This document shows positions 21,173 to 64,000 of a stretch of DNA of 64,000 bases, one piece after another. Both the position numbers and the translations under genes were made by a program. The stretch is from contig JAHQXD010000001.1 of assembly GCA_019449655.1 (NCBI GenBank), forward strand, positions 523,562-587,561. The letters run 5' to 3'. The stretch comes from Ferrigenium straubiae (GTDB taxonomy: Bacteria; Pseudomonadota; Gammaproteobacteria; Burkholderiales; Gallionellaceae). Under the pieces are notes generated by a model, which was not told the origin of the DNA, made no database searches, and worked only from the letters and a program-made list of their open reading frames with translations. Every line of letters begins with the position of its first letter. Within the stretch, counting starts at the first letter, position 1.

Positions 21173-21814
21173 CCGAGCAGGCATAGCTGGTTCCATTACC
21201 CTCAGCACCAAACCGCAACAGGGCGAGTCAACTTTAGCGCCGCTGCCATAGCTGCCAAATTAGCAAATACCCATAATTTCTCCCGGAAAAAACTGTAGCT
21301 TTCAGTATGAGGGGATTCGCAGAATGCGAATCACTACGTATTTCCATCTGGCAACCATACATAGTTTCCGGCACCGCAAATACCGCATGCTGCCCATGGG
21401 AAGCCGCCGCTCATGCAGATCACCCCGGCGCGAGCGATAGCGTCGCAACCTCTGCGTGAGAAACAATCTCATGCCTGTGTTCTCCCATTGTAAACAGCGC
21501 ATTGCTTCAGGTATGCACCTACCCCGCAAAGCAGGGGTATACCTTATTGTTTTGGACTGGCTTGAGTCTATATTGACAAGTACGGCTTGCGCATTGGCGT
21601 TTTCTTTCTGAACTCAAGGAGGAACGAAACCATAGTGCGATCCGGGGTAGCAGCGTTTTCCCGCATAAAAGGGATTGTCCATTCGGGATAGGCTCAATAT
21701 TGTTTTGATTGCGAGCTTCACTTCAAGCTTTCTCACGCGCAATCCCGGATTCAAGTATCCATGAGTATCCATGCGGGATATTTCAAATTTTTCAGGAAGA
21801 AAGGAAACGACAAC
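21173..21814. other. Intergenic region with csp leader
   Basis: This 642-bp stretch has no convincing gene. It holds a small perfect inverted repeat GATTCGCA-GAA-TGCGAATC at 21314-21332. A promoter-like element lies at 21532-21574. If that is used, the csp mRNA has a leader of about 235 nt, in keeping with the long 5' UTRs of cold-shock genes. AAGGAGG at about 21618 precedes GTG 21634 and an 18-codon frame. This could be a leader peptide but is not strong enough to call. Confidence 0.6.
21532..21574 (+). promoter_or_regulatory. Palindrome-linked promoter upstream of csp (element B)
   Basis: CAGGGGTATACCTTATTGT at 21532-21550 is followed, 15 bp after TTGT, by GTCTATATTG with -10 TATATT at 21569-21574. 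The same right half, same spacing and same GTCTATATTG occur at 42801-42845. The palindrome here is one base shorter than at the other sites, so this is the weakest member of the family. Confidence 0.5.
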
Positions 21815-22021
21815 ATGGCAACCGGTACAGTCAAATGGTTTAACGATGCGAAGGGTTTTGGCTTTGTCACTCCCGATGATGGCGGCACGGATTTGTTCGC
21901 GCACTATTCCGCAATCAACATGAGCGGTTTCAAGTCGCTCCAGGAAGGTCAAAAAGTCATCTATGACGTGGTGCAAGGACCCAAGGGCAAGCAGGCATCC
22001 AATATTGTCAACACCCTCTGA
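21815..22021 (+). CDS. Cold-shock domain protein (CspA family)
   Basis: A 68-residue single OB-fold RNA/DNA-binding protein: [34 protein letters not shown] contains RNP1 (KGFGFV) and the RNP2-like LFAHYS. Such proteins melt RNA secondary structure. AAGGAAA precedes the ATG at 21815; the longer open frame upstream is leader. It is first in a small stress cluster with Hsp20 and a DUF3460-like protein. Confidence 0.93.
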
Positions 22022-32289: not shown

Positions 32290-32313
32290 CCGGCGGGCAG
32301 GTTTGCCCGCCGG
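32290..32313 (+). terminator. Hairpin terminator after hupE
   Basis: A perfect 10-bp stem CCGGCGGGCA / TGCCCGCCGG with loop GGTT, preceded by seven A and followed by TCTGCATTTTG. The weak T-tract may allow partial read-through to hypB. Confidence 0.65.
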
Positions 32314-32378
32314 TCTGCATTTTGGGATGATGGACAGGAAACGAATAACCCTGCACTCAGGATGAAACAGGAGAAACC

Positions 32379-33242: not shown

Positions 33243-33244
33243 GG

Positions 33245-35575: not shown

Positions 35576-35585
35576 CTATTTACCC

Positions 35586-35723: not shown

Positions 35724-35923
35724 ATCAACTCCTCCAATATGCTTCAAGTGGCCATTTGATAGAACTCGACCTGGCAAAGTTCAAAGCCTGATGAATGAAT
35801 AGTTGAAATTTTTGGCCGTGGGGGAGATTTCGGAATTTCCCAGGGGCGGCAGCCGCGCAGGGTGCAATAACCGAAAGGCATTGCGCCGCATGTAAATTCC
35901 ATCTGGCGCTACGCTAATCCGCC

Positions 35924-37642: not shown

Positions 37643-37661
37643 GGTGATCTAAATCCATCCG

Positions 37662-37784
37662 TTAAACCACGAAGAACACGAAGAAGAACAAGCTGGTGCC
37701 CTGAAAATGGAATCGCCCTGTCATTGAGTGTGAAATATCCTGGACGCCCTGTTATCTTCGTGGTTTCTGTGTCCTTCGTGGTGG
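37662..37784. repeat. CACGAAG palindromic repeat, copy 3
   Basis: The left arm AACCACGAAGAACACGAAG starts near 37665. The right arm ATCTTCGTGGTTTCTGTG and CCTTCGTGGTGGA ends near 37784, with a loop of about 65 bp. It lies between hypX and hypE inside the apparent operon, so it is probably transcribed. Confidence 0.72.
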
Positions 37785-37800
37785 AGTGTGTTTTCAAGGT

Positions 37801-38850
37801 TTAACAAATCCGGGGGAGCTGCTCACCGGTCAGCCAATCGACCACGCGCCGCCCGCCGAACGCGGTCTCCATCTGCACGAAATGGTGCGGGTCTTCGATC
37901 ACCTCACCCACGATGGCGGCGTCGCTTCCGAGGGGATGCGCGCGCATCGCCTGCAGCAGGCGCTCGGCATCCTCTGGCGCACAGATCGCCACCAGCTTGC
38001 CTTCGTTGGCGACGTACAGCGGGTCGAGGCCGAGGAACTCGCATGCCGCGTTGACCTGCTCGCGGATCGGCAACCTGCTTTCATAGAGCATCATGCCCGC
38101 CGCCGACTGGTGCGCGATCTCGTTGAGCGTGGTGGCAAGCCCGCCGCGCGTGGGGTCGCGCAGCACGTGGATGTCCGGCACCGCCTCCAGCATCGCCGCC
38201 ACCAACTCATGCAAGGCCGCCGTGTCGGATTCGATGCTGGTGTGGAAGGTCAGGTTCTCGCGCAGTGAAATGATCGCCACGCCGTGGTCGCCCAGCATTC
38301 CGGACACCAGTATCTTGTCGCCCGGACGTGCGCGGTCGCCGGACAGGTTGATGCCTTCCGGCATGACACCGATGCCGGTGGTTGTGATGAACACGCCATC
38401 GCCCTTGCCCTGCTCCACCACCTTGGTGTCGCCGGTGACGATAGGCACGCCCGCCGCGCTTGCGGCCATGGCCATGGATTCGGCAATGCGTTTCAGGTCG
38501 GCGAGCGGGAAGCCCTCTTCGAGGACGAACGAGGCCGACAGGTACAGCGGCCTGGCGCCCATCACCGCGACGTCGTTGATCGTGCCATGCACCGACAGGC
38601 AGCCAATGTCGCCACCCGGAAAGAACAGCGGCGACACCACATGGCTGTCGGTCGCCATCACCAGCCGCCCGTTTGCCGGCGGCAGCACCGCGCCATCGTT
38701 GCCCTGTGCCAGATAGGTGTTGCCGAATGCGGCGGCGAACAGTTCGGTAATCAGTTGCGCCATCGCGCGCCCGCCGCTGCCGTGCGTCATATCCACGCGG
38801 CCATGCTTGAAATCGAGCGGGCGCATGTAGTTGGATTTGATCGTGCTCAC
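37801..38850 (-). CDS. hypE: Hydrogenase maturation protein HypE
   Basis: A protein of about 349 residues of the PurM/AIR-synthetase fold that dehydrates its C-terminal thiocarbamate to thiocyanate and donates cyanide. The essential C-terminus PRIC is intact. MTHGSGGRAMAQLI, GNDGAVLP, DSHVVSPLFFPGGDIG and VTGDTKVVEQGKGDGVFI are conserved. The GTG at 38850 is preferred: GGAG lies eight bases before it, and it overlaps the stop of a hypD remnant (GTGA). The next in-frame ATG is at 38826. Confidence 0.92.
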   Translation of the reverse strand: MSTIKSNYMRPLDFKHGRVDMTHGSGGRAMAQLITELFAAAFGNTYLAQGNDGAVLPPANGRLVMATDSHVVSPLFFPGGDIGCLSVHGTINDVAVMGARPLYLSASFVLEEGFPLADLKRIAESMAMAASAAGVPIVTGDTKVVEQGKGDGVFITTTGIGVMPEGINLSGDRARPGDKILVSGMLGDHGVAIISLRENLTFHTSIESDTAALHELVAAMLEAVPDIHVLRDPTRGGLATTLNEIAHQSAAGMMLYESRLPIREQVNAACEFLGLDPLYVANEGKLVAICAPEDAERLLQAMRAHPLGSDAAIVGEVIEDPHHFVQMETAFGGRRVVDWLTGEQLPRIC

Positions 38851-38935
38851 TGGGTTGTCTCCCTGAAACGTCCGTAACTGTAATGCGCCGCACATGCGCC
38901 TTCACTTGACACCATACAGGAGCCGATCGGGTTGT
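38847..38935 (-). pseudogene. Remnant duplicate of the hypD 3' end
   Basis: On the minus strand this encodes NPIGSCMVSSEGACAAHYSYGRFR then ETTQ-stop. It nearly repeats the end of hypD (NPVGSCMVSSEGACAAHYSYGRFR then SGDDLVAA-stop). DNA identity is about 90% over 70 bp. Its stop overlaps the hypE start by GTGA, the arrangement expected of an original hypD-hypE junction. Confidence 0.8.
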
Positions 38936-38984
38936 GGCTACGGCCGGCACTGTGTGCCTTAACATTCGCTTCGCTCATGTTAGC

Positions 38985-40127
38985 CTACGCCGCAACCAGG
39001 TCATCGCCGCTGCGAAACCTTCCATAACTGTAATGTGCCGCACATGCCCCTTCACTTGACACCATGCAGGAGCCGACCGGGTTGTCCGGCGTGCAGACCG
39101 TGCCGAACAGCTTGCAGTCCTGCGGGCGCTTCACGCCGCGCAGGATCGCGCCGCATTCGCAGGCCTTGTTGTCGGCGATCGATATCTGCGGCACCTGGAA
39201 GCGCAGCTCGGCATCGAAATCCGCGTAGGGCGCCTTGATGCGCAGCGCGCTGTAGGGTACCGGCCCGAGGCCGCGCCATTCGAACACGCGGCGCAACTCG
39301 AACACTTCCGCCACCAGCAACTGCGCCTTGACGTTGCCGTCGCGCGTCACCGCGCGGGAGAATTCGTTTTCCACCTCGGCGCGTCCTTCGTTCAATTGCC
39401 GCACCAGCATCAGGATGGCCTGCATCACGTCGAGCGGCTCGAAGCCGGCGATCACCACCGGCTTCTGGAACTCCTCGGCGAAATATTCGTAGGGATGGCT
39501 ACCAATTACCGTCGAGACATGCGCCGGGCCGATGAAGCCGTCCAGTGGCACCAGCCCGAGCTGCCGCACCTCGGGAGATTGCAGGATGTGCGAGATCGCC
39601 GAGGGGGTCAGTACGTGGTTGCAGAATACGCTGAAATTTCTGAGGCCGAGCGCCTGCGCCTGCCGGATCGCCACCGCCGTCGGCGGCGTGGTGGTCTCGA
39701 AACCGATCGCGAAAAACACCACCTCCCGCTGCGGATTGTCCTGCGCGATCTTCACCGCATCGGCGCTGGAATACACCATGCGCACATCCCCGCCGCGCGC
39801 CTTCGCTTTCAGCAGGCTCATGCCGTTGTCCGCCGGCACGCGCAGCAGGTCGCCGTAACAGCACAGGATCAGCCCCGGCGTCTGCGCAAGCTGGATGGCG
39901 TTCTCCACGCGCCCCGTCGGCAGCACACACACCGGACAGCCGGGGCCGTGGATCATGCGTACGTTGTGGGGCAACAGGTCGGCGATACCATAACGCGAAA
40001 TCGCGTGGGTATGGCCGCCGCAGAATTCCATCAGGTGATAGCGGCGGCGCGGATCGGCCTCGTGCGCAATATTGGCGGCGATATTCCTGGCCAGCGCGCC
40101 GTCGCGGAACTCATCCACATATTTCAT
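38985..40127 (-). CDS. hypD: Hydrogenase maturation protein HypD
   Basis: A 380-residue 4Fe-4S scaffold on which the Fe(CN)2CO unit is built with HypC. MEFCGGHTHAISRYG, HGPGCPVCVLP, FFAIGFETTTPPTA, FCNHVLTP and the C-terminal Cys cluster region (CECGAILRG, CKLFGTVCTPDNPVGSCMVSSEGACAAHY) are all present. It overlaps hypC by four bases (ATGA). The last eight residues differ from the duplicate remnant downstream, so the present 3' end may be a recombined version. Confidence 0.95.
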   Translation of the reverse strand: MKYVDEFRDGALARNIAANIAHEADPRRRYHLMEFCGGHTHAISRYGIADLLPHNVRMIHGPGCPVCVLPTGRVENAIQLAQTPGLILCCYGDLLRVPADNGMSLLKAKARGGDVRMVYSSADAVKIAQDNPQREVVFFAIGFETTTPPTAVAIRQAQALGLRNFSVFCNHVLTPSAISHILQSPEVRQLGLVPLDGFIGPAHVSTVIGSHPYEYFAEEFQKPVVIAGFEPLDVMQAILMLVRQLNEGRAEVENEFSRAVTRDGNVKAQLLVAEVFELRRVFEWRGLGPVPYSALRIKAPYADFDAELRFQVPQISIADNKACECGAILRGVKRPQDCKLFGTVCTPDNPVGSCMVSSEGACAAHYSYGRFRSGDDLVAA

Positions 40128-40378
40128 GCCGCGCTGCCCGGCGCTTCTTCCGGCAGGCCGTTCATCGCGCTCAACTCGGCAAATAGCGCCAGAGTGCGCT
40201 CGGCTTCGGCCGGATCGAGTTTCTGCAGCGCGTAACCGACGTGCACGATCACATAGTCGCCGACCGCGACATCCTCCACTAGGGTGAGGGAGATTTCCTT
40301 GCGCACTCCGCCGAGATTGACGATGGCGCTGTCTTCAGCAACAAATTGTTCGATGCGGGCGGGAATGGCGAGACACAT
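40124..40378 (-). CDS. hypC: Hydrogenase maturation chaperone HypC
   Basis: An 84-residue HypC with N-terminal MCLAIPARIEQF (essential Cys2), then VNLGGVRKEISLTLV and VGDYVIVHVGYALQKLDP. AAGGAAAAT precedes the ATG at 40378; the longer upstream frame lacks the required Met-Cys start. First gene of the minus-strand hypC-hypD-hypE-hypX operon, with a promoter-like palindrome about 85-130 bp upstream. Confidence 0.95.
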   Translation of the reverse strand: MCLAIPARIEQFVAEDSAIVNLGGVRKEISLTLVEDVAVGDYVIVHVGYALQKLDPAEAERTLALFAELSAMNGLPEEAPGSAA

Positions 40379-40461
40379 ATTTTCCTTATGACCCAGTCGT
40401 TTAACCTGCCTGTTTGTTCCGCTTTTCATCCTGCTGCATTCGCCTTCAACAAGGCCGGAGC

Positions 40462-40506
40462 ATCATGTAGCGGGCTCGATAATTTTCAAATAGGTAGGAT
40501 TACCTA
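40462..40506 (-). promoter_or_regulatory. Palindrome-linked promoter of hypCDEX (element D)
   Basis: Minus strand: palindrome TAGGTAATCCTACCTA (40506-40491), then TTTGAA, and 16 bp later ACATGAT, giving -10 CATGAT at 40467-40462. The first 23 bases and the exact spacing are the same as at 62032-62076. The predicted start near 40455 leaves a 77-nt leader to hypC. Confidence 0.6.
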
Positions 40507-40559
40507 AGAGCCTATTTCAGCAGGTTTTAGGTTTCATTCCCCCGCTTGGGTTTTTGGGG

Positions 40560-40604
40560 TAGGTATTTCACCTTATTGTCCGCTGGACTTGCGGCGATTA
40601 TAAA
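40560..40604 (+). promoter_or_regulatory. Palindrome-linked promoter of nfeD-slipin (element C)
   Basis: TAGGTATTTCACCTTATTGT at 40560-40579 is followed by -10 TATAAA at 40599-40604. Taking TTGTCC as -35, the spacer is 17 bp. It is arranged back-to-back with element D in the same intergenic region. The predicted start is about 46 bp before the nfeD ATG. Confidence 0.6.
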
Positions 40605-40656
40605 ACATACCCAATGCCCAACACCGAGAGGATGCGATGCCCCCCGGAAAGGAACG

Positions 40657-41994
40657 ATGAAGCGCCTCCTCTGCCTTACCGTCGCGCTGCTGCTCCTGCC
40701 GCTTGCAGCCTCCGCCGGGATGGTCGTGGTGGCGGAGATCGACGGCGCCATCAGTCCGGCCAGCGCCGCCTATTTCCTGCGCGCCCTGGATGAGGCGAAG
40801 CAGAGCCGCGCGGAACTGCTGGTGCTCAGGCTTGACACGCCGGGAGGGCTCGACACGGCGATGCGCAATATGATCCAGGGTATCCTCGCCTCGCCGGTGG
40901 CGGTGGCGACCTACGTCTCGCCTTCCGGCTCCCGCGCAGCCAGCGCCGGCACCTACCTGCTCTACGCCAGCCACATCGCCGCGATGGCGCCGGGCACCAA
41001 TCTGGGCGCCGCCACACCCGTAGCCATCGGCGTCGGCGACACCGGCAAGCCCCCCGAGGAACGGGCCGCAAACGGGAAGGCACGCGCACCGGGCGGCAGC
41101 GCGATGGAAAAAAAGGCGGTACAGGACGCCGCAGCCTACCTGCGCAGCCTCGCCCAACTGCGCGGCCGCAATGCCGATTGGGCGGAGAAAGCAGTACGCG
41201 AGGCAGAAAGCCTGTCGGCCGAAGATGCGCTGAAACTGAAGGTGGTGGATTTCTTCGCAACCGACCTGCCCGACCTGCTGCGCCAGGCCGACGGGCGCAA
41301 TGTACGCCTCGCGGAAGGCGATCACAAACTGGCGCTCGGCGGCGCCGCCATCGTCAGCATCGAGCGCAACTGGAAGGAGCGCCTGCTGATGGCGGTGGCC
41401 GACCCCAACACCGCGCTGATCCTGATGATGCTCGACATCTACGGGTTGCTGTTCGAGTTTTACACGCCGGGGATCGGCGTGGCCGGCGTAATCGGCGCCA
41501 TCAGCTTGCTGCTGGCGCTCTACGGTTTCGCCATGCTGCCGATCAACGCGACCGGCGCACTGCTCCTGCTGGTGGGTCTTGCGCTGATGGCAGCGGAAGC
41601 CTTCACGCCCAGTTTCGGCGTGCTAGGCATCGGCGGCGTTGTTTCCTTCGTCGCCGGCGCGCTGATGCTGATCGACGCCGACATTCCCGGCATGGAAGTT
41701 TCGCTCGCATTTATCGTGCCGCTGGCCGTAGTCAGCGCCCTGGTGCTGGCCGGCATCGGCGCCTTCGCGTTGCGCGCAAGGCGGCGGCCCATGGTCAGCG
41801 GCAGCGAGGCGATGCTGGGCGGTACGGCAGTGGCACTCGAAGATTTCGAACGTGAAGGCTGGGTGCTGGCCTTCGGCGAACGCTGGCAGGCGCGCAGCGA
41901 GTCGGCAGTGGCGCGCGGTACGCGCGTCAGGATAGTGGCATTGGACGGACTTACTCTGGTAGTTCAACCTGAACAGAAAGGAGAACAGCCATGA
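40657..41994 (+). CDS. NfeD-family membrane-bound serine protease (long form)
   Basis: A 445-residue protein: signal peptide MKRLLCLTVALLLLPLAASA, then a ClpP/SppA-like protease domain with the catalytic-Ser region SPSGSRAASAGTYLLYASHIAAMAPGTNLGAATPV. A Lys further on lies in MEKKAVQDAAAYLRSLAQLRGRN. Four to five membrane helices follow, and a C-terminal OB-fold NfeD domain (LGGTAVALEDFEREGWVLAFGERW). Long NfeD proteins cleave stomatin partners. AAAGGAACG precedes ATG 40657. It overlaps the slipin gene by four bases (ATGA). Confidence 0.92.
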   Translation: MKRLLCLTVALLLLPLAASAGMVVVAEIDGAISPASAAYFLRALDEAKQSRAELLVLRLDTPGGLDTAMRNMIQGILASPVAVATYVSPSGSRAASAGTYLLYASHIAAMAPGTNLGAATPVAIGVGDTGKPPEERAANGKARAPGGSAMEKKAVQDAAAYLRSLAQLRGRNADWAEKAVREAESLSAEDALKLKVVDFFATDLPDLLRQADGRNVRLAEGDHKLALGGAAIVSIERNWKERLLMAVADPNTALILMMLDIYGLLFEFYTPGIGVAGVIGAISLLLALYGFAMLPINATGALLLLVGLALMAAEAFTPSFGVLGIGGVVSFVAGALMLIDADIPGMEVSLAFIVPLAVVSALVLAGIGAFALRARRRPMVSGSEAMLGGTAVALEDFEREGWVLAFGERWQARSESAVARGTRVRIVALDGLTLVVQPEQKGEQP

Positions 41995-42725
41995 TCTGGG
42001 ATTTCGGCTGGAGCGGCGCCCTGCTGCTCATCATCGCTTTGGCGATAACAAGCGTCCGCATTCTGCGCGAATACGAACGCGGCGTGGTCTTCATGCTCGG
42101 GCGTTTCTGGAAAGTGAAGGGGCCTGGCCTCATCATCGTCTTGCCGGGCATCCAGCAGATGGTGCGGGTGGACCTGCGCGTGATCGTGATGGATGTGCCG
42201 AGCCAGGATGTCATCTCGCGCGACAATGTGTCGGTAAAGGTGAACGCGGTGGTGTATTTTCGCGTCATCGACCCGCAGAAGGCCATCATTCAGGTGGAAA
42301 ACTTCATCGAGGCGATTTCGCAACTGGCGCAGACCACACTGCGCTCGGTGCTCGGCAAACATGAGCTGGACGTCATGCTGGCCGAGCGCGAACGCCTGAA
42401 CGCCGATATCCAGCAGATCCTCGATGCGCAGACCGACGCCTGGGGCGTCAAGGTGTCCACCGTGGAGATCAAGCGCGTGGACATCGACGAGTCGATGGTG
42501 CGCGCCATCGCCAAACAGGCCGAGGCCGAGCGCGAGCGGCGTGCCAAGGTGATCCACGCCGAAGGCGAGTTGCAGGCTTCAGAGAAGCTGCTGCAGGCCG
42601 CGCAAGTGCTGGCGCAATCGCCGCAGGCCATGCAACTGCGCTACCTGCAAACCCTCAACGCGATCGCCGGCGACAAGAGCAACACCATCGTATTCCCACT
42701 GCCGGTAGAACTATTCAAGCCATAG
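41991..42725 (+). CDS. Slipin / stomatin-like SPFH protein
   Basis: A 244-residue membrane-associated protein: an N-terminal hydrophobic hairpin (WSGALLLIIALAITSVRIL), then SPFH/band-7 domain (REYERGVVFMLGRFWKVKGPGLIIVLPGIQQMVRVDLRV, DVISRDNVSVKVNAVVYFRV) and the coiled AEAERERRAKVIHAEGELQASEKL tail. It is the standard partner and substrate of long NfeD and is translationally coupled to it. It is probably a membrane quality-control or scaffold pair. Confidence 0.94.
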   Translation: MIWDFGWSGALLLIIALAITSVRILREYERGVVFMLGRFWKVKGPGLIIVLPGIQQMVRVDLRVIVMDVPSQDVISRDNVSVKVNAVVYFRVIDPQKAIIQVENFIEAISQLAQTTLRSVLGKHELDVMLAERERLNADIQQILDAQTDAWGVKVSTVEIKRVDIDESMVRAIAKQAEAERERRAKVIHAEGELQASEKLLQAAQVLAQSPQAMQLRYLQTLNAIAGDKSNTIVFPLPVELFKP

Positions 42726-42800: not shown

Positions 42801-42844
42801 TAGGGGTTTTACCCTATTGTAACGATGCGGCAGATGTCTATATT
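42801..42844 (+). promoter_or_regulatory. Palindrome-linked promoter of receiver/kinase cluster (element A)
   Basis: Palindrome TAGGGGTTTTACCCTA at 42801-42816 runs directly into TTGTAA (-35). A 16-bp spacer leads to TATATT (42839-42844). GTCTATATTG and the spacing are shared with 21532-21575. The predicted start near 42851 gives a leader of about 130 nt for the first receiver gene. Confidence 0.62.
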
Positions 42845-42982
42845 GCATACATACCGGCCCGGCGTCGATAAGGGATCCAATCCGGCAGGCTTCGACTTCT
42901 GGATGCCTCGTGAACATCAGGTTCGCGAAGGGTGCATAACGGTTTGCAGCCTGCATGAGCAGATCAGATGAAGGGGAATACG

Positions 42983-43438
42983 ATGCCAGTTTCTTCCGAG
43001 CACCCCACAGTGCTGGTAGTGGACGATGAGCCGTTCAATTTAAGCCTGATGGAGGAGATATTGGGTAAAGACTACAACGTCAAGCTGATCGACAACAGCC
43101 TCAAGGCAATTGAGCTCGCCTTTGCCGACCCGCCGGATTTGGTCCTGCTGGATGTGATGATGCCGGATATGGATGGCTTCGAGGTCTGCCGCCGCCTGAT
43201 GAGCAACCCCGCCACAAGTCATGTGCCGGTGATCTTCATAACTTCCAAAAACGAAACCAGGGACGAGGAATTGGGGTTCTCGGTGGGTGCATCCGATTTC
43301 ATTCACAAACCCATCAGCGCGCCGATACTCGCTGCGCGCGTCAAGGCGCACCTCAAGATCAAATTCATGCAGGATTATTTACGCCACGAAAATACGCAGG
43401 CTGTAATGCGCAGTTATTTCTGGCTAAGGGCGGCATAA
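42983..43438 (+). CDS. Single-domain response regulator, tandem copy 1
   Basis: A 151-residue receiver: VLVVDDEPFNLSLMEEIL (acidic pair), LVLLDVMMPDMDGFEVC (phospho-Asp), FITSKN (Thr/Ser) and IHKPIS (Lys). No output domain; a C-terminal helix (ARVKAHLKIKFMQDYLRHEN) follows. Met 42983 has AGGGGAATACG before it; the ATG at 42968 overlaps that site and is less likely. It is a close paralogue of the next gene, and both lie upstream of a hybrid kinase. Confidence 0.88.
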   Translation: MPVSSEHPTVLVVDDEPFNLSLMEEILGKDYNVKLIDNSLKAIELAFADPPDLVLLDVMMPDMDGFEVCRRLMSNPATSHVPVIFITSKNETRDEELGFSVGASDFIHKPISAPILAARVKAHLKIKFMQDYLRHENTQAVMRSYFWLRAA

Positions 43439-43481
43439 CGGTTTACGGTCATCCGAATCGACTTAATGAAAGGGGAATATG

Positions 43482-43985
43482 ATGTCAATCTCTTCCGAAC
43501 GTCCGACGGTGCTGGTGGTAGACGATGAACCGTTCAACTTGAGCCTGATGGAAGGCATATTGGGCAAGTACTACAACGTCAAACTGGCCGATGATAGCCT
43601 CAAGGCGCTCGAGCTTGCCTTCGCCGAACCTCCTGACCTGGTTCTGCTCGATGTAATGATGCCGGATGTGGATGGTTTTGAAATCTGCCGCCGCCTGATG
43701 AACAACCCTGCGACGAATCACGTGCCGGTCATCTTCATAACGGCCAAAAATGAAGTCAAGGATGAAGAGCTGGGATTCTCGGTGGGTGCGTCCGATTTCA
43801 TCCACAAGCCCATCAGCGCGCCGCTGGTCGCTGCGCGTGTCAGGACGCACCTCAAGATCAAATTCATGCAGGATTATTTGCGCAGCGAGAATGCCAAGCT
43901 GCAGGAAAGCGCCTACGAAAAGTCGTCCGAGCTGCAGCAATTAAAGGACTTCATGTGGGGTTCCGATCAGTATGCCAGGCATTGA
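43482..43985 (+). CDS. Single-domain response regulator, tandem copy 2
   Basis: A 167-residue receiver very similar to copy 1 through FIHKPISAPxxAARVxxHLKIKFMQDYLR, then diverging to NAKLQESAYEKSSELQQLKDFMWGSDQYARH, a coiled tail. The phospho-Asp is in LVLLDVMMPDVDGFEIC. The leader ATAACGGTTT ... AAAGGGGAATATGATG repeats the leader of copy 1, so the duplication included upstream DNA. Two adjacent ATGs occur (43479, 43482); the second has better spacing. Confidence 0.88.
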   Translation: MSISSERPTVLVVDDEPFNLSLMEGILGKYYNVKLADDSLKALELAFAEPPDLVLLDVMMPDVDGFEICRRLMNNPATNHVPVIFITAKNEVKDEELGFSVGASDFIHKPISAPLVAARVRTHLKIKFMQDYLRSENAKLQESAYEKSSELQQLKDFMWGSDQYARH

Positions 43986-44040: not shown

Positions 44041-47000
44041 ATGAGGCCGGTATTGCCCATGAAAGCCGCCCTCACATCCAATTCGTTTTACCGCAACTTT
44101 TTCATCCTGGCCATTCTGTTGGCGGTACTGGTTTCTCTGGCTGCAATTTATCGTTACAACCAGGCAATCGACGATCAGAAAACCATCCTCAGGGCGGACA
44201 GTTCGCTCAACGTACTGGCCAATGGACGTGAAGTCGAACGCTCGCTTGGCGAAGCCGTCCGCTATGTCACCTACCTCGCGGCCAATCCGGGACTGGCCGC
44301 CGCAGCGGAACAGAAAACTTCCACGAACATGGAGAACCTGCGCAGGGATTTTGTCCTGTTCTCCATGTCGCACCCGATTTATTACCAGACATCCTGGATA
44401 AACGGGAATGGCATGGAAATGCTGCGGATAAACAATATCGATGGCCAGATCAGCATTACCGATCAAAACAAGCTGGAAAACAAACGCGACCGGCACTACT
44501 TCCAGAAGAGCATCGGGCTGGGGCCGGGCCAGATTTACGTATCCCAGCTATATCCGGAAATTGCAGATGAAGAGATTCTCGCTCATCGCCTTCCCGTCAT
44601 CAGCATCGCCACTCCCGTTTTCGACGCTCGGGCTCGCCGCCATGGCGTGCTGGTGGTCACAGTAGCCGTCAAGGAATACCAGGCTCTCGTGGGGGCCTAC
44701 CGGAGCATAGCCAGCAGCTACAACATGCTGCTGGATGGCGATGGGTACTGGTTGATGGGCGATAACCCGGATGACAAGCTGGAGGCCATGTTCAATCGCT
44801 CGGGAACCCTTGCTACCAGTTTTCCCGCCGCATGGGAAAAGATTGTATCGGCGGAGCATGGCCAGTTCGAGGATAAAACCGGCCTGTGGAGCTTTGAAAC
44901 GGCCTATCTGCTGAAACCGCGCAAGGATGCCGGCATCCCGATACGCACCAGCACCGGTATCGATCGTTATTTCTGGAAAGTGGTTTCTTATGTCCCCGCA
45001 AACCGGATCGCAGAATTGAATTCCGGGGTGATGTGGCCCACCGTGCTCTATGCGGCGGGAACGCTGCTGCTGCTGCTGATCGGTTCCTGGTATTTCACCA
45101 AAATGCGCTATTCCCAACTCAAGGCCAAGCAGGATCTGAACATTGCCGCCGCAGAATACGCCAAACAACTGGTCATCCGCGATACTGAAGCGCGCATGTA
45201 TGCGATTCTCCACACCATCGCGGACGGGATCATCACCTTCAACGAAGACGGCATCATCGAGGAATTCGCCGCCAACGCCGAGCACATTTTCGGTTATCCC
45301 ATCGACGAAGCCGTCGGGCAAAATATCGGCATGCTGATGCCGGAGTTTGTCCAGTTGCTGCACAGCGACTGTCTGTTGCGCGAGAGCAAAGATGTGTGCT
45401 TCACCGGCGGCGAGAGAGAGATCACAGGGCAGCGCAAGGATGGTAGTGCCTTCCCCCTGGAATTGGCGGTGAGCGAGGTGATGCTGGGTGGAAAGCGCCA
45501 TTTTACCTGCATGGTGCGCGACATCACCCGGTACAAACGAAACCAGCAGGAGCTGATTGCCGCCAAATACGATGCAGAACTGGCCAGCCAGGCCAAAAGC
45601 TATTTCCTCGCCAATATGAGCCACGAAATCCGCACACCGATGAATGCAATCCTGGGCTTCACCCACCTGTGCCTGCAAACCGAGCTGACACCCGTACAGC
45701 GGGATTATCTGGAAAAGGTTTCTCTTTCGGCAAACTCGCTGCTGGGCATCATCAACGACATTCTGGATTTTTCCAAGATCGAATCCGGCAAGCTGGATAT
45801 GGAAAAAGCGCCCTTCAGCCTGGAGGGAGTCCTGAAAGGCGTAGCGGCCGTCATCAGCATCCGCGCGGAAGAAAAGCACATCGAGTTCCTGATCGACAAG
45901 GAATTCAGGATTCCGCAGTTGCTGGTTGGCGACTCATTGCGCCTGGGGCAGGTGCTGAACAATCTTGCCAACAATGCGGTGAAATTTACCGAGGCTGGCG
46001 AGGTCGAGATTCGAATCCGGATAATAAACCGGGCTGCCGATCGGGTTATGTTGCGCTTCACCGTAAGGGACACCGGCATCGGCCTGACATCCGAGCAGCG
46101 CGAAAAACTCTTCCAGTCCTTCAGCCAGGCAGATGTTTCCACCACCCGGAGATACGGCGGGACGGGGCTGGGGCTGGCCATCTCCAAACGCCTCGTGGAG
46201 TTGATGGACGGACGGATAGAGGTGGAAAGCACGCCGGGGCAAGGTAGCGTTTTTTCCTTCGATATTTCCTTCGCCTATCTGCCCGATGAAGCCCGCAACC
46301 TGGAATATCTGAACGTGCTCAGAGTGCTGGTGGTCGATGACAACGATAACGCGCGCCGCCTGATGCTATCCTGCCTGGAGTCATTCGGCATCGAGGCGAT
46401 GGCCGTCTCCGGCAGCCTCGAAGGGATTGCTGCGATCGAGAAGGCCGAAGGAACCGAAAAGCCGTTTACCTGCGTGGCGCTGGACTGGAGCATGCCCGGC
46501 ATCAGCGGCCTGGAAGCGGCCAGGCGCATCAAACGGGAGCTGCCGCTGCGCCAGCAGCCATGCATCATTTACCTTTCCGGCCATAAGCATACCGAAATGA
46601 TTCATGAGTCGGAGGCAGCGGCGCTGCTGGACGCAATCATCAACAAACCGGTCATGGCATCCAACCTGTTCGACGCGCTGATGACGTGCAATTCGGGTAT
46701 GGGCATGCTGTCCTCGCCCGAGCCGGGGAAAGAGACACATGTCGACCTGACGGGATTGCACGTATTGCTGGTGGAAGACAACAAGTTCAACCAGCAGCTG
46801 GCCAACGCGCTGCTGATGCGTGCCGGAGTGGAAGTCGGCATCGCCGACGACGGAATCGAGGCGATGCAGGCATTGCAGCGGGAACGGTTCGATGCGGTAC
46901 TCATGGATATGCAGATGCCCAAGATGGATGGCCTGGAAGCAACGCGCCTGATCAGGGAAAACCCGGCACTGGCCGATTTGCCCATCATCGCCATGACGGC

Positions 47001-47514
47001 CAACGCCATGATCGGCGACCGGGATGCTTGCCTTGCCGCGGGCATGAACGATTATATTTCCAAGCCGGTGCAGTACGAGGCGATGTACGCCACCCTGGCC
47101 CGCTGGGTGCACCGCCAGGAGCGGATGCCCAGGCAATCCGCAGCGGAAACCCGGCAATCGCCCGAAGCTCCGGCCGCTTTCGATCCCGAAAAGGCCATAG
47201 CCGGCATGGGAAGCAAGGATATTTACCTGACCATGCTCGGCAAGTTTGCTCCCAGCCAAGGGCAGGCAGTGCAGTCTATCCGGGACGCGCTTGCGGCCGA
47301 TGACCGGAAAACGGCGGAGCGCCTGGCGCACACGCTGAAGGGAGTCGCAGCGACCATCGGCGCCTATTTGCTGGCGGAAACCGCCGGCCAGCTGGAGAAG
47401 GCCATTGCGGAAGAAGATGCCGGCAAATGCCGGCAACTGGTTGAGGCCGCTGCCGTCAGGCTGGCCGAGGCGATAACCTCGGTAGAGACCTACCTCAAGG
47501 AACACAAGGCTTAG
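44041..47514 (+). CDS. Hybrid sensor histidine kinase (Cache-PAS-HisKA-HATPase-REC-REC-Hpt)
   Basis: A 1157-residue BarA/EvgS-like phosphorelay kinase. A transmembrane helix at about 17-38, a periplasmic Cache-type sensor (to about 335), and a second helix ([18 protein letters not shown]) come first. Then PAS (about 380-500), HisKA with [17 protein letters not shown], HATPase ([36 protein letters not shown]), receiver 1 ([15 protein letters not shown]), receiver 2 ([23 protein letters not shown]) and a C-terminal Hpt domain ([13 protein letters not shown]). It probably works with the two receivers upstream. Confidence 0.94.
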
Positions 47515-56167: not shown

Positions 56168-56824
56168 CTAATTGGTAACCAGCCCTCTTTCTATGGCATA
56201 GGCAGTTATCATCGATGCATTGTGCAGATTGAGTTTTTTCATCAAATTGGATCGATGTTTTTCGACCGTCTTGATGCTCAGGCAAAAGTAGTCGGCAATG
56301 AACTTGTTCGGATGCCCTTCGGCCACGAGCTTCAGCACTTCCCTCTCGCGGTGGGTCAACGTATCCCAAGTGCTGACCGGGCTGGATGATTTGTCGGTAT
56401 CCAGATAACCGTTGATCACTTTTGCCGATATGTCCGGGCTCAGGTAAGTCTTGCCGTTCAGCACGCTGCGGATTGCGATGCGCAATTCATCGTGCGATGC
56501 ATCCTTGAGGATATAGCCGTCGGCGCCCGCACGCATGGCTTCAAAAATGTATTCGTCCGTTTTATGGATCGTGAGCACCAGTACGCGGACGCCGGGGTAG
56601 CGCCGCTTGATGTCTACGATGGATTCGATGCCATTCATGCCGGGCATGGAAAGGTCCGTCAGCACCAGATCGGGAGCGGTCGTCGCAATCATACGGACGG
56701 CATCGCGGCCATTCTCCGCTTCGCCGACAATCTCGATCTCCGTATCCTGGGATAGCAATGCCTTGAGGCCGGCCCTCAACAGGGTATGGTCTTCGACGAT
56801 CAGAACGCGTTTTTTCTCTTTCAT
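56168..56824 (-). CDS. NarL/FixJ-family response regulator
   Basis: A 218-residue regulator: receiver with VLIVEDHTLLRAG, phospho-Asp in LVLTDLSMPGMNG, LTIH and YILKDAS. A LuxR-type helix-turn-helix follows (LTHREREVLKLVAEGHPNKFIADYFCLSIKTVEKHRSNLMKKL). GGAGG precedes adjacent ATGs at 56827/56824; the second has better spacing. It is second in an operon with a truncated paralogue and lies upstream of the multicopper oxidase on the same strand. It is a candidate regulator of that operon. Confidence 0.92.
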   Translation of the reverse strand: MKEKKRVLIVEDHTLLRAGLKALLSQDTEIEIVGEAENGRDAVRMIATTAPDLVLTDLSMPGMNGIESIVDIKRRYPGVRVLVLTIHKTDEYIFEAMRAGADGYILKDASHDELRIAIRSVLNGKTYLSPDISAKVINGYLDTDKSSSPVSTWDTLTHREREVLKLVAEGHPNKFIADYFCLSIKTVEKHRSNLMKKLNLHNASMITAYAIERGLVTN

Positions 56825-56826
56825 CA

Positions 56827-57318
56827 TTACCTCCAGTCAGTCGCATGCCGCACAGCGCAAATGTAGTGGCCTTTGCCGTGATTCAATGAATCGCGGGCAT
56901 CCAGGCAACCGTTGGTAGCCGATATTCCGTAACTCAGATATTTCTTGCCGTTCAGCACGCAGCGAATTGCGGTGCGCAATTCGTCATGTGCATCATCCTT
57001 GAGAACGTAGCCATCGGCGCCAGCCAGCAGGCTTCCATGAACGCATTCGACCGCCTTGTGCATGGTAAGAACCAGTACGCGGGTGTCCGGGTGGTGCCGC
57101 TTGATATCCGCAATGGCCTCCATGCCGCTCATGCCGAGTATGGGCAGATCCATCAGCACCAGGTCGGCGGCGAAAACCTTGACCAGAAGCGCGGCATCGC
57201 GGCTATCGTCAGATTCACCGGCAACCTCGATATCCGCTTCCCGCGACAATAATGTCCTGATGCCAATTCTCAGCAGTGGGTAATCCTCGATGATCAGGAT
57301 GCGTTTCTTTTTTCCCAT
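56827..57318 (-). CDS. Truncated NarL-type regulator (receiver only)
   Basis: A 163-residue paralogue of the next gene: ILIIEDYPLLRIGIRTLLS, LVLMDLPILGMSG (phospho-Asp kept, MPG changed to ILG), LTMHK, YVLKDDAHDELRTAIRCVLNGKKYLS. After that the homology breaks and it ends HGKGHYICAVRHATDWR with no DNA-binding domain. Its stop codon overlaps the ribosome site and start of the full-length paralogue. ATG 57318 has GGAGA upstream. It is probably a decayed tandem duplicate, possibly still a phosphate sink. Confidence 0.8.
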   Translation of the reverse strand: MGKKKRILIIEDYPLLRIGIRTLLSREADIEVAGESDDSRDAALLVKVFAADLVLMDLPILGMSGMEAIADIKRHHPDTRVLVLTMHKAVECVHGSLLAGADGYVLKDDAHDELRTAIRCVLNGKKYLSYGISATNGCLDARDSLNHGKGHYICAVRHATDWR

Positions 57319-57576
57319 CGTTATCTCCGGTTTATATGTCCCATTCCGGCAACAACACCAAGGCTTCGGTGGAGTATGCATGGGGAACAGGTGGTATGTC
57401 TGAACTGCTAGCCGACAAACAGCGACCCACTCTTTTCATGATCGGACGCGATGCGCCACGCCTTGCCAAGGGCGGCAGGATGGCGGCCATTATTACAATG
57501 GTGACAGCCTCGCAAAATAAGTAAAACCACCTATTGCCCGCTAGCCGCAAACCTGTGGGCTTTCCTGCCGTATCGT

Positions 57577-60064: not shown

Positions 60065-60892
60065 TTAATTTTTCCTGGGAATCGAAGCTGGCCTCCACCA
60101 CATACCATGTGACAAGGCACTGCTTACGGGCCGTGCAGGGATACGGGCAGCAACAGCCTGCGGTCGTTGCGCCGACAGCAGCCGCTCAAACTCTCTTTTG
60201 ACCACCATATAGCACCCGCAGGCCTGTGCTTCCAGTTTCGGTCGATCCAGCACGACAATCCGCCCACAAGTGTAATTAACTATCCCGGCTGCATGCAGTT
60301 TTCTGGCTGCTTCGGCAATACCCTCGCGGCGCAATCCCGGCATATTGGCAATCAGATCCTGCGTCATCAGCAACTCGTTTGAAGGCAATCTATCCATGCT
60401 CGACAGCAACCAGCGGCACAGCTGCTGCTCCACCGAATGATACCGGTTGCATGCTGCAGTCTGCGCCATCATCTTGATCAGCGACTGCGTGTAGTGCAGC
60501 AGAACATTCCGTAGCGCACCGCCGAGTTCGAATTCCCACTTCAGCGCGCTGGAGTCAAGCCGGTAGGCGCAACCGGCACTTTGCACCACTGCCCGGCCCG
60601 AGATGGAAGGCCCTCCCATGAACGTGGCAATCCCGACCAGACCTTCATTGCCGATTACTGCAATCTCCGCCGGCAATCCGTCTTCCATCCGGCGAAGAAG
60701 CGTAATGACGCTATCGGTGGGGAAATAGACATGGCGCAACTGCGCCTCGTCTTCGTAGAGAATCGAACCGAACCTCAGTGGCACCAGTTCCATATCTGGC
60801 GCCAAGCGCTCATACACCGCTGCAGGAAGCCCGGCAAGAAGGTTGTTTTGCTTGTGCTCACGATATGCCGGCTGCGCAAGTATTTTTGACAT
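60065..60892 (-). CDS. Crp/Fnr-family transcriptional regulator
   Basis: A 275-residue regulator: cyclic-nucleotide-binding-like beta-roll (NNLLAGLPAAVYERLAPDMELVPLRFGSILYEDEAQLRHVYFPTDSVITLL), dimer helix, and a C-terminal winged helix (LLMTQDLIANMPGLRREGIAEAARKLHAAGIVNYTCGRIVVLD). There is no N-terminal Cys cluster of the Fnr type, so it is not an Fe-S oxygen sensor. The carboxyl tail is longer than usual. It follows the NarX-like kinase by 45 bp and is probably co-transcribed with it. Confidence 0.88.
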   Translation of the reverse strand: MSKILAQPAYREHKQNNLLAGLPAAVYERLAPDMELVPLRFGSILYEDEAQLRHVYFPTDSVITLLRRMEDGLPAEIAVIGNEGLVGIATFMGGPSISGRAVVQSAGCAYRLDSSALKWEFELGGALRNVLLHYTQSLIKMMAQTAACNRYHSVEQQLCRWLLSSMDRLPSNELLMTQDLIANMPGLRREGIAEAARKLHAAGIVNYTCGRIVVLDRPKLEAQACGCYMVVKREFERLLSAQRPQAVAARIPARPVSSALSHGMWWRPASIPRKN

Positions 60893-60937: not shown

Positions 60938-61789
60938 TCACAATACGATCGGATTGGCAACGATCCTCAGGCTATTGCGCCAGGTCACTTTCTGCCCTGA
61001 ATGCCTATCCTCCAATTCGCTGAGCGGCCACGAAACATTAATTCTTGTTCCTTGCCCGGCTCTGGATTCCATTACATAGGTCCCCCCGGAGAGTTCGGCA
61101 CGTTCTTTCATGCTCAAAAGGCCGAGCCCTTTGCCGAAAGGGCGGGACTTGCCAGCCTCCAGCGGGTCGAAACCATCTCCGTTATCGTCGATCGAGAGGT
61201 GCAAGGTAGCGCCGGCTCTCTTCAGGCTCACCCGGATATGGCTGGCGTTGGCGTGCTTGACGATATTGTTGGTTGCTTCCTGAATGATGCGGAAAATTAT
61301 TATCTTGAGCGGCGCAGGTATGCCGCCTTCCTGGATGCCGAAGGATTTTTCGACTTTTATCCCCTGACAGGCCATTTCAAACTCCCGGAAAAACCACGAC
61401 AGGGTCGCGAGGATGCCGAGATCGTCGATTATTGCAGGGCGCAGGTTCATGGAAACGCAGCGTAACTCTTCGAATGCCCCTTTGACCTTGAGTCTCATCT
61501 GCTGCAGCGATTCGGCCGCGCTTTTTGTCTCGTTTGCGGCCAGCAACATCACCGACTCATCCAGCATAAGCTTGATCACGGTCAACGATTGGCCGAGCAC
61601 ATCATGCAAATCGGTGGCGATCCGCCGCCGCTCGCTTTCCTGAACCTCCAGCAAGCGGGCAGATAGCCGCTGCAATTCGGTTTGCTGCCTGCATGAAACC
61701 CTGCCGGATGTGTAACGGCCCTTTGCCTCTGCCGCTGAGGCCACAGATTGGCGCCGTTGCCTTAATTGTCCTATCGATTTCGCGTACAT
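60938..61789 (-). CDS. NarX-type sensor histidine kinase, cytoplasmic
   Basis: A 283-residue kinase: an N-terminal segment of about 50 residues, then HisKA_3 (LSARLLEVQESERRRIATDLHDVLGQSLTVIKLML; His in DLHD) and HATPase (IIQEATNNIVKHANASHIRV, IDDNGDGFDP, GLGLLSMKERAELSGG). No membrane segment or sensor domain is seen, so it needs a partner or internal signal. GGGAGGTG precedes ATG 61789. Such kinases phosphorylate NarL-type regulators like that at 56168. It has its own upstream promoter-like element. Confidence 0.9.
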   Translation of the reverse strand: MYAKSIGQLRQRRQSVASAAEAKGRYTSGRVSCRQQTELQRLSARLLEVQESERRRIATDLHDVLGQSLTVIKLMLDESVMLLAANETKSAAESLQQMRLKVKGAFEELRCVSMNLRPAIIDDLGILATLSWFFREFEMACQGIKVEKSFGIQEGGIPAPLKIIIFRIIQEATNNIVKHANASHIRVSLKRAGATLHLSIDDNGDGFDPLEAGKSRPFGKGLGLLSMKERAELSGGTYVMESRAGQGTRINVSWPLSELEDRHSGQKVTWRNSLRIVANPIVL

Positions 61790-62214
61790 GTGCCACCTCC
61801 CGATATCGCATTGCATGAACGATCACCCGATTTAGTGAAAACTCTTTATGCCACCCTGATCTCCAGCTAGTGGCGTACTTTGGAATGGAAACTTGTTCGC
61901 CGTATCATCGGCCACGCTTCGATAGCACTTGCCGTCTGCGTCTGGGTCGATTGGTTATGCGGTAGCAAAAGCTCCGGGAAGAGCTGAACGCTATATTTGT
62001 TACGGTGCATTCCCTTCGACAACGTGGGAATATCATGTAACGAATCCTGTCGATTTCAAATAGGTAGGATTACCTAGCGGCAGTAGGGAAATATCGTTGC
62101 AACCCGGCAGAACGGGTAAATGGTTTTGTTAGCCCACATAGAATGACGTGTAAGAACGCCGCACGAAACCAGCGTAGCGTGCGCTGCGCAACACGACATA
62201 ATTTTTGAATTGCT
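61790..62214. other. Intergenic region upstream of NarX-like kinase
   Basis: This 425-bp stretch has no gene. It contains promoter-like element E (62032-62076) pointing to the kinase, and hence an apparent leader of about 235 nt. No terminator was recognised for the FixJ-like gene that ends at 62215. Confidence 0.55.
62032..62076 (-). promoter_or_regulatory. Palindrome-linked promoter of NarX-like kinase (element E)
   Basis: Minus strand: TAGGTAATCCTACCTA (62076-62061), TTTGAA, 16 bp, then ACATGAT with -10 CATGAT at 62037-62032. It is the same as element D at 40462-40506 over the first 23 bases and in exact spacing, although the surrounding sequences differ. Confidence 0.6.
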
Positions 62215-62835
62215 TCAGGAATCCTGCAGGTCCAACCGGAGTTGGGCGATTTCGACGACGCTACCGACATTGAGTTTTCTCATGATGTTGGCACGATGGA
62301 TATCCACTGTTTTCGGGCTGATTTGAAGTTTCTGCGCAATGACTTTGCTTGAATTTCCGGCCACCAGCAGTTCCACCACCTCAGTCTCGCGCTCGGTCAG
62401 CGAAGCAAAATAGGCGCGCCGCCGCTCGACTTCGCCGGATCGCTGGCGATTCTTTCTGTCCAGTTCGAGAGCGGCATTAACCCGATCCAGCAACTCCTGC
62501 GCGTTGAATGGCTTCTGGATAAAATCGAATGCGCCGTGTTTCAAGGCGCGAACGGCCATGGGCACGTCGCCGTGGCCGGTAATGATAATGACGGGCAGAG
62601 TAATGCCGCTGTATTTGAGCGCCTCGAGAAGCTCCATGCCGCTCATACCCGGCATCCGTACATCCAGCAGCAGGCAGCCTTCCTCATCGGGATCGCAGGA
62701 AGCCACGAAATCACTCGTGCTGGCGAACATCCTGGTTTCAAGATTCACCGATTCCAGCAGCCAGTGAATCGAGTCGCGCATGGCCTCGTCGTCGTCCACC
62801 ACGAATATCATCGGCTGTCTGTTGCTTTCATTCAT
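62215..62835 (-). CDS. FixJ/TtrR-type response regulator
   Basis: A 206-residue regulator. Receiver: IFVVDDDEAMRDS, LLLDVRMPGMSGMELL, VIIITGHGDVPMAVRALKHGAFDFIQKPF (FixJ/NtrC-like features). LuxR-type helix-turn-helix: LTERETEVVELLVAGNSSKVIAQKLQISPKTVDIHRANIMRKL. ATG 62835 lies inside the end of the kinase gene (overlap ATGAATGA), so the pair is translationally coupled. The longer upstream frame is shadow of the kinase. Confidence 0.93.
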   Translation of the reverse strand: MNESNRQPMIFVVDDDEAMRDSIHWLLESVNLETRMFASTSDFVASCDPDEEGCLLLDVRMPGMSGMELLEALKYSGITLPVIIITGHGDVPMAVRALKHGAFDFIQKPFNAQELLDRVNAALELDRKNRQRSGEVERRRAYFASLTERETEVVELLVAGNSSKVIAQKLQISPKTVDIHRANIMRKLNVGSVVEIAQLRLDLQDS

Positions 62836-64000
62836 GTTCTGCTCCGATAGGAAGAGTGAAATAGAATTCGGCGCCGAATTCGCGTTGCGTATCCGCCCAG
62901 ATCCGGCCACCGTGATTTTCGACAAAGCTGCGGCAAATGGCCAATCCGAGACCAAGCCCATCCCGTTTCGAGGACTGGAAGGGGTTGAACAGGCTCTCCA
63001 TCCCACCCGCCGGAATACCACTTCCACTGTCGCTTACCGTAACCAATATCTCACCGGATTCAACAACGCCGGTAGACAGGCGCAGTTCACGCTGCGGGCA
63101 GGAATGCATCGATTCAATGGCATTTTTGCACAGGTTCAGCAATACCTGCTCGATCTCCACCTTGCATGCCATGACTTTGGGCAAGGGAAACAAAGCCATG
63201 TGTACGGAAATACCCTGGCGCTTGATCTCGTCCTCCAGAAACGTTACGACATCCCTGGCCAACTGGTTGACGTCAATCAAAACGCGTTCGTGACCCTGCT
63301 TTCTCACCATTTCCTTCAGATGGTTGATGATCTTGCCGGCCCGCTCGGACTGTTTATGTGCAAGCTGTACTGCCCTATGGAGCTTTTCCCTGTTCCAGTC
63401 GTTTTCCTCCATGCGCCGCAGGCAGCCATCCAGGTAATTGCTGCATGCGGTCAAGGGCTGGCTCAGTTCGTGCGCCATGCTGGAAGCCATTTCCCCGGCA
63501 ATGTTAAGGCGGCCAACATGCTCCATCTTCTCCCGCATATTCTCGAATTGTTTCTGCTCGGTTATATCGACGCAGGTTCCAATATAACCGGAAAAATCTC
63601 CCTCTTCCGTAAAACGGGGAATGCCGGAATCCAGCATCCAGCGGTATATGCCGTCCTGGCGCCGCAGACGGTATTCCAGCTTGAACGGCTGTATTTGCCC
63701 GATGGCTTTGCTGTAAACATCGAGGCAGCGCTCCGCATCATCGGGGTGGACATATCTTACCCAGTCGCGCACCTGAGTTTCTTCCCGTGCATGCCCGGTA
63801 AAATCGTGCCACCGCTGGTTGAAGAAATTGCAGCCCTGATAGGCTCGTTCGTCGCTTACCTCTGCTACCCAGATGATGATCGGCGCATTGTCCACCGTAG
63901 TGCGGAACAGGTTTTCACTTTCCCGCAAGGCAACCTCCGCCAGCCTGCGCGTCGTGATATCGAACATGGTCGAACGGCTCATCACGAAATGGCCTTCCGG
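62828..64000 (-). CDS. FixL-like PAS sensor histidine kinase (5' end beyond window)
   Basis: The frame is open to the right edge (PEGHFVMSRSTMFDITTRRLAEVALRE), so the N-terminus is missing. That edge looks like the end of a PAS domain. Next come a further PAS/PAC (ENLFRTTVDNAPIIIWVAEVSDERAYQGCNFFNQRW ... GYIGTCVDITEQKQFE), HisKA (INIAGEMASSMAHELSQPLTACSNYLDG-like, His in MAHELSQPL) and HATPase (LLNLCKNAIESM, SDSGSGIPAGG, GLGLAICRSFVENHGG). It is coupled to the FixJ-like gene. The signal sensed is unknown. Confidence 0.9.
   Translation of the reverse strand, partial: PEGHFVMSRSTMFDITTRRLAEVALRESENLFRTTVDNAPIIIWVAEVSDERAYQGCNFFNQRWHDFTGHAREETQVRDWVRYVHPDDAERCLDVYSKAIGQIQPFKLEYRLRRQDGIYRWMLDSGIPRFTEEGDFSGYIGTCVDITEQKQFENMREKMEHVGRLNIAGEMASSMAHELSQPLTACSNYLDGCLRRMEENDWNREKLHRAVQLAHKQSERAGKIINHLKEMVRKQGHERVLIDVNQLARDVVTFLEDEIKRQGISVHMALFPLPKVMACKVEIEQVLLNLCKNAIESMHSCPQRELRLSTGVVESGEILVTVSDSGSGIPAGGMESLFNPFQSSKRDGLGLGLAICRSFVENHGGRIWADTQREFGAEFYFTLPIGAEHE

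Follow-up and report, generated by a model that had tools for sequence, protein, structure and literature searches.

Does one regulator act on several promoters that lie close together, near a hydrogenase cluster, in a genome of the Gallionellaceae? The question is raised by five promoter elements, A to E, in a stretch of 64,000 nucleotides (the window, G000:C4:523562-587561, where G000 is the source genome of 2.66 Mb, 99.99% complete). A preliminary description had assigned all five to a single regulator, on the strength of a palindrome abutting a -35-like hexamer. The part of that proposal that concerns a real regulon is supported by our analysis, and what we observe looks like a small, locally clustered regulon of familiar type, with the NarL-type response regulator encoded at 56168 (RR56) as the favourite for its control. 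The architecture of the motif is real and the five sites are unequally alike; they need not all be served by one regulator.

Promoter elements in the window

The five elements lie where they had been placed (Table 1), and all of them have an abutting TTG and a roughly common centre of symmetry. The shared layout of a palindromic site abutting the -35 was thus confirmed, and so was the distance of 16-17 bp to the -10. The two palindrome formulas that had been proposed apply strictly to D, E and B (for B, TAGGGG-N4-ACCCTA at 42801-42816), but C has one half displaced (TAGGTA-N4-ACCTTA at 40560-40575) and A fits neither, keeping AGG-N6-CCT on the same centre (21531-21546). D and E, each an exact TAGGTA-N4-TACCTA, have 23 bases in common, and TTGT-N15-GTCTATATTG is common to A and B, both as claimed. 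Read in the direction of the gene, D and E are TAGGTAATCCTACCTATTTGAAA-N14-TACATGAT, B is TAGGGGTTTTACCCTATTGTAA-N16-TATATT, C is TAGGTATTTCACCTTATTGTCC-N17-TATAAA and A is GCAGGGGTATACCTTATTGTTT-N16-TATATT.

Two sites are new. Site 57533 has TAATAA at the expected place and lies upstream of the receiver and RR56 genes; Site F (C4:594696) lies outside the window, 7 kb beyond its end, has its TACATGAT just as far away as D and E do, and is followed by a gene for a PAS protein and, further on, by a cold-shock gene, the latter read from its translation. D, E and F all contain TAGGTAATYCTACCTATTTRAAA, and the distance from it to TACATGAT is constant; all seven sites of G000 (A-F and 57533) fall within 50 kb.

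Table 1. Promoter elements and genes in the window, with positions counted from its first letter; products of the downstream genes were assigned by Pfam
Feature	Position	Strand	Remarks
Site A	21531..21574	+	GCAGGGGTATACCTTATTGT with TATATT; promoter of cold-shock gene, then hsp20
Site B	42801..42844	+	TAGGGGTTTTACCCTATTGT with TATATT; promoter of receiver/hybrid-kinase genes
Site C	40560..40604	+	TAGGTATTTCACCTTATTGT with TATAAA; nfeD-slipin promoter
Site D	40462..40506	-	TAGGTAATCCTACCTA 40491-40506, TTTGAAA, then TACATGAT 40462-40469; promoter of hypC-hypD-hypE
Site E	62032..62076	-	TAGGTAATCCTACCTA 62061-62076, TTTGAAA, then TACATGAT 62032-62039; promoter of HisKA_3 kinase gene
Site 57533	57490..57533	-	TAGGTGGTTTTACTTATTT 57518-57533, TAATAA 57490-57495; not in the preliminary description
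Cold-shock protein	21761..22021	+	downstream of A
hypE (AIRS domains)	37801..38895	-	downstream of D
hypD	38985..40127	-	downstream of D
hypC	40124..40429	-	downstream of D
nfeD	40657..41994	+	scanned as 40546-41994; downstream of C
Slipin (Band 7)	41991..42725	+	downstream of C
Receiver protein	42968..43438	+	downstream of B
Second receiver	43479..43985	+	downstream of B
Hybrid kinase	44041..47514	+	downstream of B, after second receiver
RR56, receiver + GerE (NarL-type) response regulator	56168..56827	-	
Receiver-domain protein	56827..57381	-	upstream of RR56, one-base overlap
Crp-like gene	60065..60892	-	downstream of HK3
HK3, HisKA_3 histidine kinase	60938..61816	-	downstream of E
FixJ-like response regulator	62215..63027	-	
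PAS histidine kinase	62828..63985	-	overlaps FixJ-like gene

The surroundings of RR56 differ among genomes. Beside it in the window (48265-55836, minus strand), genes for a cytochrome c/periplasmic-binding protein, an FKBP isomerase and a multicopper oxidase are arranged as in a mofC-mofB-mofA cluster; mofABC is described in PMC5566968. A conserved T2SS-G gene directly adjoins the RR56 pair in the window and is some 8-9 kb away from it in relatives (L209, L210, L211, L213, L215), where a second T2SS-G-like gene lies just before RR56. The sister genome G023 has two RR56 copies at 88-89% identity (contigs C18 and C47; L103, L223), one of them adjoining genes for SLT, hsp20 and csp; in the window the corresponding genes are separated (SLT at 47532; csp/hsp20 at 21761-22557).

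Strict and loose forms of the motif

To what extent the motif exceeds chance depends on how strictly it is written. The window contains 11 copies of the loose form TAGGKRN4YMCCTA with up to two mismatches, where 6.85 (sd 2.61) would be expected, a difference that is not significant (9 of 100 window shuffles reached 11), and in the whole genome TAGGTAN4TACCTATT and AGGKN5ACCYTATTGT, with the same tolerance, gave 16 matches against 14 in the reversed control and 29 against 35 in the control, respectively. Being at chance in both window and genome, the loose palindrome was rejected as a marker. Strict forms are significant: TAGGTAN4TACCTATTT is found twice in the window and ACCYTATTGTN17-19TATAWW three times, and neither occurs in 300 first-order Markov surrogates. 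The exact TAGGTAN4TACCTATT matches the genome at D, E and F only, and the exact TAGGTA-N4-TACCTATT has three copies in the 2.66 Mb, every one upstream of a gene. The preliminary description had proposed a genome scan for the placement of the palindrome as a refuting check; the exact motif alone comes through it, with 3/3 copies intergenic.

Among the 158 genomes of the family, the pattern of A, B and C (ACCYTATTGT-N17-19-TATAWW) has its three matches in G000 and none in the other 157, with one match of the control pattern across all 158. TAGGTAN4TACCTATTT with up to one mismatch gave 21 matches in 15 of the 158 genomes, against 33 in the control; G000 has three exact matches, G023 two and G119 one. 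A TACATGAT-type element accompanies the sites of G000 and G023 only, and the other matches we read as chance from their sequence. One one-mismatch match (C5:213672) was left out; it is absent from the matches of the profile R2, described below. G000 also carries AGGGTGGGCACGTTTTTGTGCCCAC-type inverted repeats (C4:93511, C4:150057, C5:150820, C5:203151, C5:633898, C5:668564), and identical stretches of 95 bases at C4:267782 and C4:274106, 6.3 kb apart, whose identity suggests a repetitive protein gene.

Conservation at orthologous promoters

In G023, sites of the D/E/F type are present before hypC, before the kinase gene and before csp, and the promoter of hypC is the same as Site D. Beyond the palindrome, on its upstream side, the DNA of these orthologous promoters is unrelated between the two genomes. 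The kinase promoter provides the widest comparison: a D/E/F-type site precedes the HisKA_3 kinase gene at 11 of the 12 loci examined, from at least two families (with a site: G000, G023, G018, G135, G147, G152, G036, L118, G335, G261 and G365; without: G021, which has a doubtful site only). Left out of these 12 loci are HK3-like genes of 37-42% identity directly beside RR56 (L210, L217, L218, L219, L120), before which the matrix gave no site, and a partial HK3 at the edge of L220. TAGGTAATY or a close variant stands before the kinase in G018, G135, G147, G152, G036 and the Sulfurimicrobium contig L118.

A matrix built from the six G000/G023 sites ranked the expected kinase-promoter position first in 5/5 other family loci, among about 25,000-40,000 positions per locus, by a slim margin in G018 (15.2) and G036 (15.7), since loci that have no site reached up to 15.1. 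In L118 the kinase promoter came second with the same matrix, after the PAS-kinase/FixJ promoter at the top. With 15 sites in the matrix, 16 positions in 480 kb scored at least 19.9, compared with a reversed-control maximum of 17.6, and two of these lay outside the training set, namely site 57533 (19.9) and L118:4430; Site A scored 4.8 although it belongs to the training set. No clear counterpart of site 57533 was seen upstream of RR56 in G023, G135, G147, G152 or G021, and the candidate in G018 scored 12.5, inside the control range. Also inside that range is a weak candidate before an S8-type protease in G018 (L106:6276).

Across 20 sites of this conserved class, five of which came from later scans and not from the first alignments, T1, G4, T5, T8, C13, A16, T17 and T18 are invariant. 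The -10-like element is at position 38 in 16 of the 20, so that the site abuts the -35 at a fixed distance from the -10, and in 15 of the 20 this element is TACATGAT or differs from it by one mismatch. G135, G147 and G152 keep the palindrome half and have no clear TACATGAT.

Co-occurrence of the sites with RR56

RR56 is a NarL/FixJ-type regulator, with PF00072 and PF00196 above their gathering scores, and its solved relatives include VraR and NarL. It falls short of the NarL equivalog NF007935 (166.5 bits, cut-off 250) and of the MctR equivalog NF052445 (181.1 bits, cut-off 300), and is below the cut-off of all 25 NCBIfam models shown, the best 25 of 114 matched. RR56 is present in 16 of the 158 family genomes at E<=1e-50, and HK3-like genes adjoin it in several relatives.

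A profile of the six D/E/F sites from G000 and G023 (R1), run on the 158 family genomes, matched at E <1e-10 in G000 (3) and G023 (3) only; next came G155 (E 0.005, partial) and then weaker matches, with 39 of the 158 genomes having one at E<=1. A, B and C were not recovered by R1 in these genomes. A second profile (R2) of 17 sites, C among them, was applied to 32 chosen genomes, where matches at E<=0.01 occurred in 8/8 genomes having RR56 at 76% identity or more (seven of which contributed training sites, G021 being the exception), in 0/8 with RR56 at 57-73% and in 0/16 without RR56, four of the latter having weaker matches (best E 0.038). In G000 this profile recovered six sites, all in C4:564019-594744, and missed A; Site C, itself a training site, was matched at E 0.04.

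Among 399 genomes of the order, R2 matched at E<1e-3 in five (G000, G018, G261, G335 and G365), of which G000 and G018 were in the training set and the other three were not, although L118, a training site, may come from a near relative of these three; ten further genomes had weaker matches (E 0.02-0.05). RR56 was found at E<=1e-60 in 10 of the 399, including all five strong-site genomes, always at 79% identity or more, and none of the ten weak ones. Two of the seven genomes of this sample with RR56 at 77% or more (G171 and G191, 77-78%) have no listed site under the stricter filters, and in G154 and G146 the recognition-helix region is almost identical to that of RR56, yet no site was found. 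The D/E/F-type sites and RR56 thus occur together across genomes, and these figures depend on phylogeny and on the kinase gene travelling with RR56.

The matches in G261, G335 and G365 include new sites upstream of the kinase. G335 has four R2 matches (one of them L291), three of which were assigned to genes, and its further sites stand before PAS-kinase/FixJ genes and, at E 0.016, before a kinase-RR56 pair. Because site 57533 precedes the receiver and RR56 genes, and because G335 has this site before the kinase-RR56 pair, autoregulation of the RR56 operon is likely. Of the two regulators that the preliminary description had named as candidates, RR56, which co-occurs with the sites, is the better supported.

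One regulator or several

The sites of G000 differ in how closely they follow the common recognition sequence. D, E, F and 57533 agree, 57533 keeping all invariant positions of the conserved class, and on their sequence these four form one class. C keeps the invariant positions, departs from the consensus at position 11, and probably belongs to the regulon; B breaks the invariant T5 and A, the weakest member, several invariant positions, so that these two are placed in the regulon less surely. By eye, the csp promoter of G023 resembles A.

Could B and A be read by a paralogous NarL-type regulator? They may, and a division of labour that gives D, E, F and 57533 to RR56, and A, B and perhaps C to another such regulator, has, in our judgement, a little under an even chance. 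The three sites deviate from the conserved class and escape the profile made from D, E and F, and there is a second promoter class, which has its centre and its abutting TTG in common with the first, and from whose pattern Site C is one mismatch away. With one mismatch allowed, this pattern (ATAGGTATTTNNNCNTATTG) is matched 67 times, compared with 8 times for the control; the matches fall in 39 of the 158 family genomes, of which 32 are without RR56. Since a class of the same layout occurs mostly in genomes that have no RR56, related systems have the layout in common. Against such a division, kinase promoters of relatives such as TAGGTAATCTCCCATATTGT in G152 bridge the gap between D/E/F and C, the seven sites of G000 are crowded into one short region, and for A and B we identified no regulator besides RR56.

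The second class is roughly ATAGRYATTTYGGCMTATTG, often preceded by CTAGGCCGAAATAT, as at G000:C1:152121-152140. Of 30 loci opened (L247-L276) and read by eye, seven precede the same small conserved protein, which we take to have a CZB-type domain, and one precedes a NarL-type regulator; adhesin- or fimbria-like and secretion genes are also found downstream.

A proposed mechanism and its alternatives

We consider it likely that D, E, F and 57533 are RR56 sites, predicted to abut a weak -35 in class II activation, with HK3 as the likely partner of RR56. This reading has its basis in the sequence, the geometry, the conservation at orthologous promoters and the co-occurrence with RR56, and from these we infer that RR56 binds, that it activates and does not repress, which kinase phosphorylates it and where transcription starts. 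The HisKA_3 kinase at 60938 would most likely phosphorylate RR56, a dimer of which would then bind the 16-bp TAGGTAATYNYMCNTA, centred near -43, and help the sigma-70 polymerase at the weak -35. RR56 would thereby activate its own kinase, a positive feedback, and probably also its own operon; the hydrogenase maturation genes hypCDE and the PAS protein with the cold-shock gene would be its further targets. As no recognised sensor domain was found in HK3, the signal probably enters via partners; candidates are the PAS protein downstream of F and the receivers downstream of B. Extended to its full reach, the scheme becomes a self-activating NarL-type system whose kinase, lacking its own sensor domain, would be fed by PAS and receiver proteins from the same regulon. 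It would tie hyp, csp and the neighbouring multicopper-oxidase/T2SS cluster into one local regulon, preserved among several families of iron and sulfur oxidisers and using promoters with a conserved non-standard -10 (TACATGAT); we regard this as a long shot. Because these genomes hold many NarL-type paralogues, another regulator could be responsible.

A regulator site in contact with the -35 is able to block polymerase, and the same sites might therefore be operators of a NarL-type repressor. The poor -35 and -10 of D, E and F and the fixed distance from site to -10 are a better fit to activation, and we think repression improbable.

The other candidate of the preliminary description, the FixJ-like regulator at 62215 with its PAS kinase, is disfavoured. 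Its gene adjoins Site E, and a site is present at the FixJ-like operon promoter in the Sulfurimicrobium contig and in G335, but at E<=1e-50 no FixJ-like protein was found in G023, G021 or G036 (completeness 99%, 80% and 82%), all of which bear sites; RR56 is for this reason the better fit, and the absence from G023, which retains three sites, argues strongly against the FixJ-like protein. It was found in 7 of the 158 family genomes, in two of which (G006 and G149) the match has 41-44% identity only and RR56 is missing. That this regulator binds the sites is very unlikely. In model score the protein stays below the FixJ equivalog NF006900 (223.1 bits, cut-off 255). That the elements have no regulatory role and are dispersed repeats or palindromes arisen by chance is hardly credible, for although the loose palindrome is not enriched and the likeness of E and F downstream of TACATGAT would allow for the copying of a promoter block, the three exact copies are all upstream of genes in the same orientation and at the same spacing, the window has no Rfam match at gathering score, and this reading is contradicted by the conservation across genomes, which at orthologous promoters extends to two families or more.

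RR56 as the regulator of D, E, F and 57533 provides a testable map from regulator to targets for the Gallionellaceae, and would connect, at the promoter level, a signalling cascade with cold-shock proteins and hydrogen metabolism. Since conservation of the strict motif extends to two families or more, it can be used to predict targets in uncultured genomes.

Comparison with known systems

The regulon looks undescribed, as no description of the motif was found in the openly licensed PMC literature among the matches listed, and the kind of control looks familiar. In class II sigma-70 activator promoters the activator site abuts or overlaps the -35, and the promoters studied here resemble them in the abutting weak -35, the 16-17 bp to the -10 and a centre that we infer to be near -43; they differ in the -10-like element, TACATGAT or one mismatch from it in the 15 of 20 sites noted above. 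NarL and NarP bind TACYYMT heptamers, which in pairs form TACYYMT-N2-AKRRGTA. The likeness to these systems consists in the receiver-GerE structure of RR56, a HisKA_3-type candidate kinase and a 16-bp dyad of halves containing TAC/GTA, whereas the halves here point the other way (TAGGTA-N4-TACCTA), the kinase is without a recognised sensor domain, and the proposed control concerns hyp, csp, PAS and kinase genes. As regards MctR/MctS, NF052445 is the second-best model for RR56 (181 bits) and NF052443 the best for HK3 (135 bits), but both proteins are far under the curated cut-offs of 300 and 700 bits and by that test are not members.
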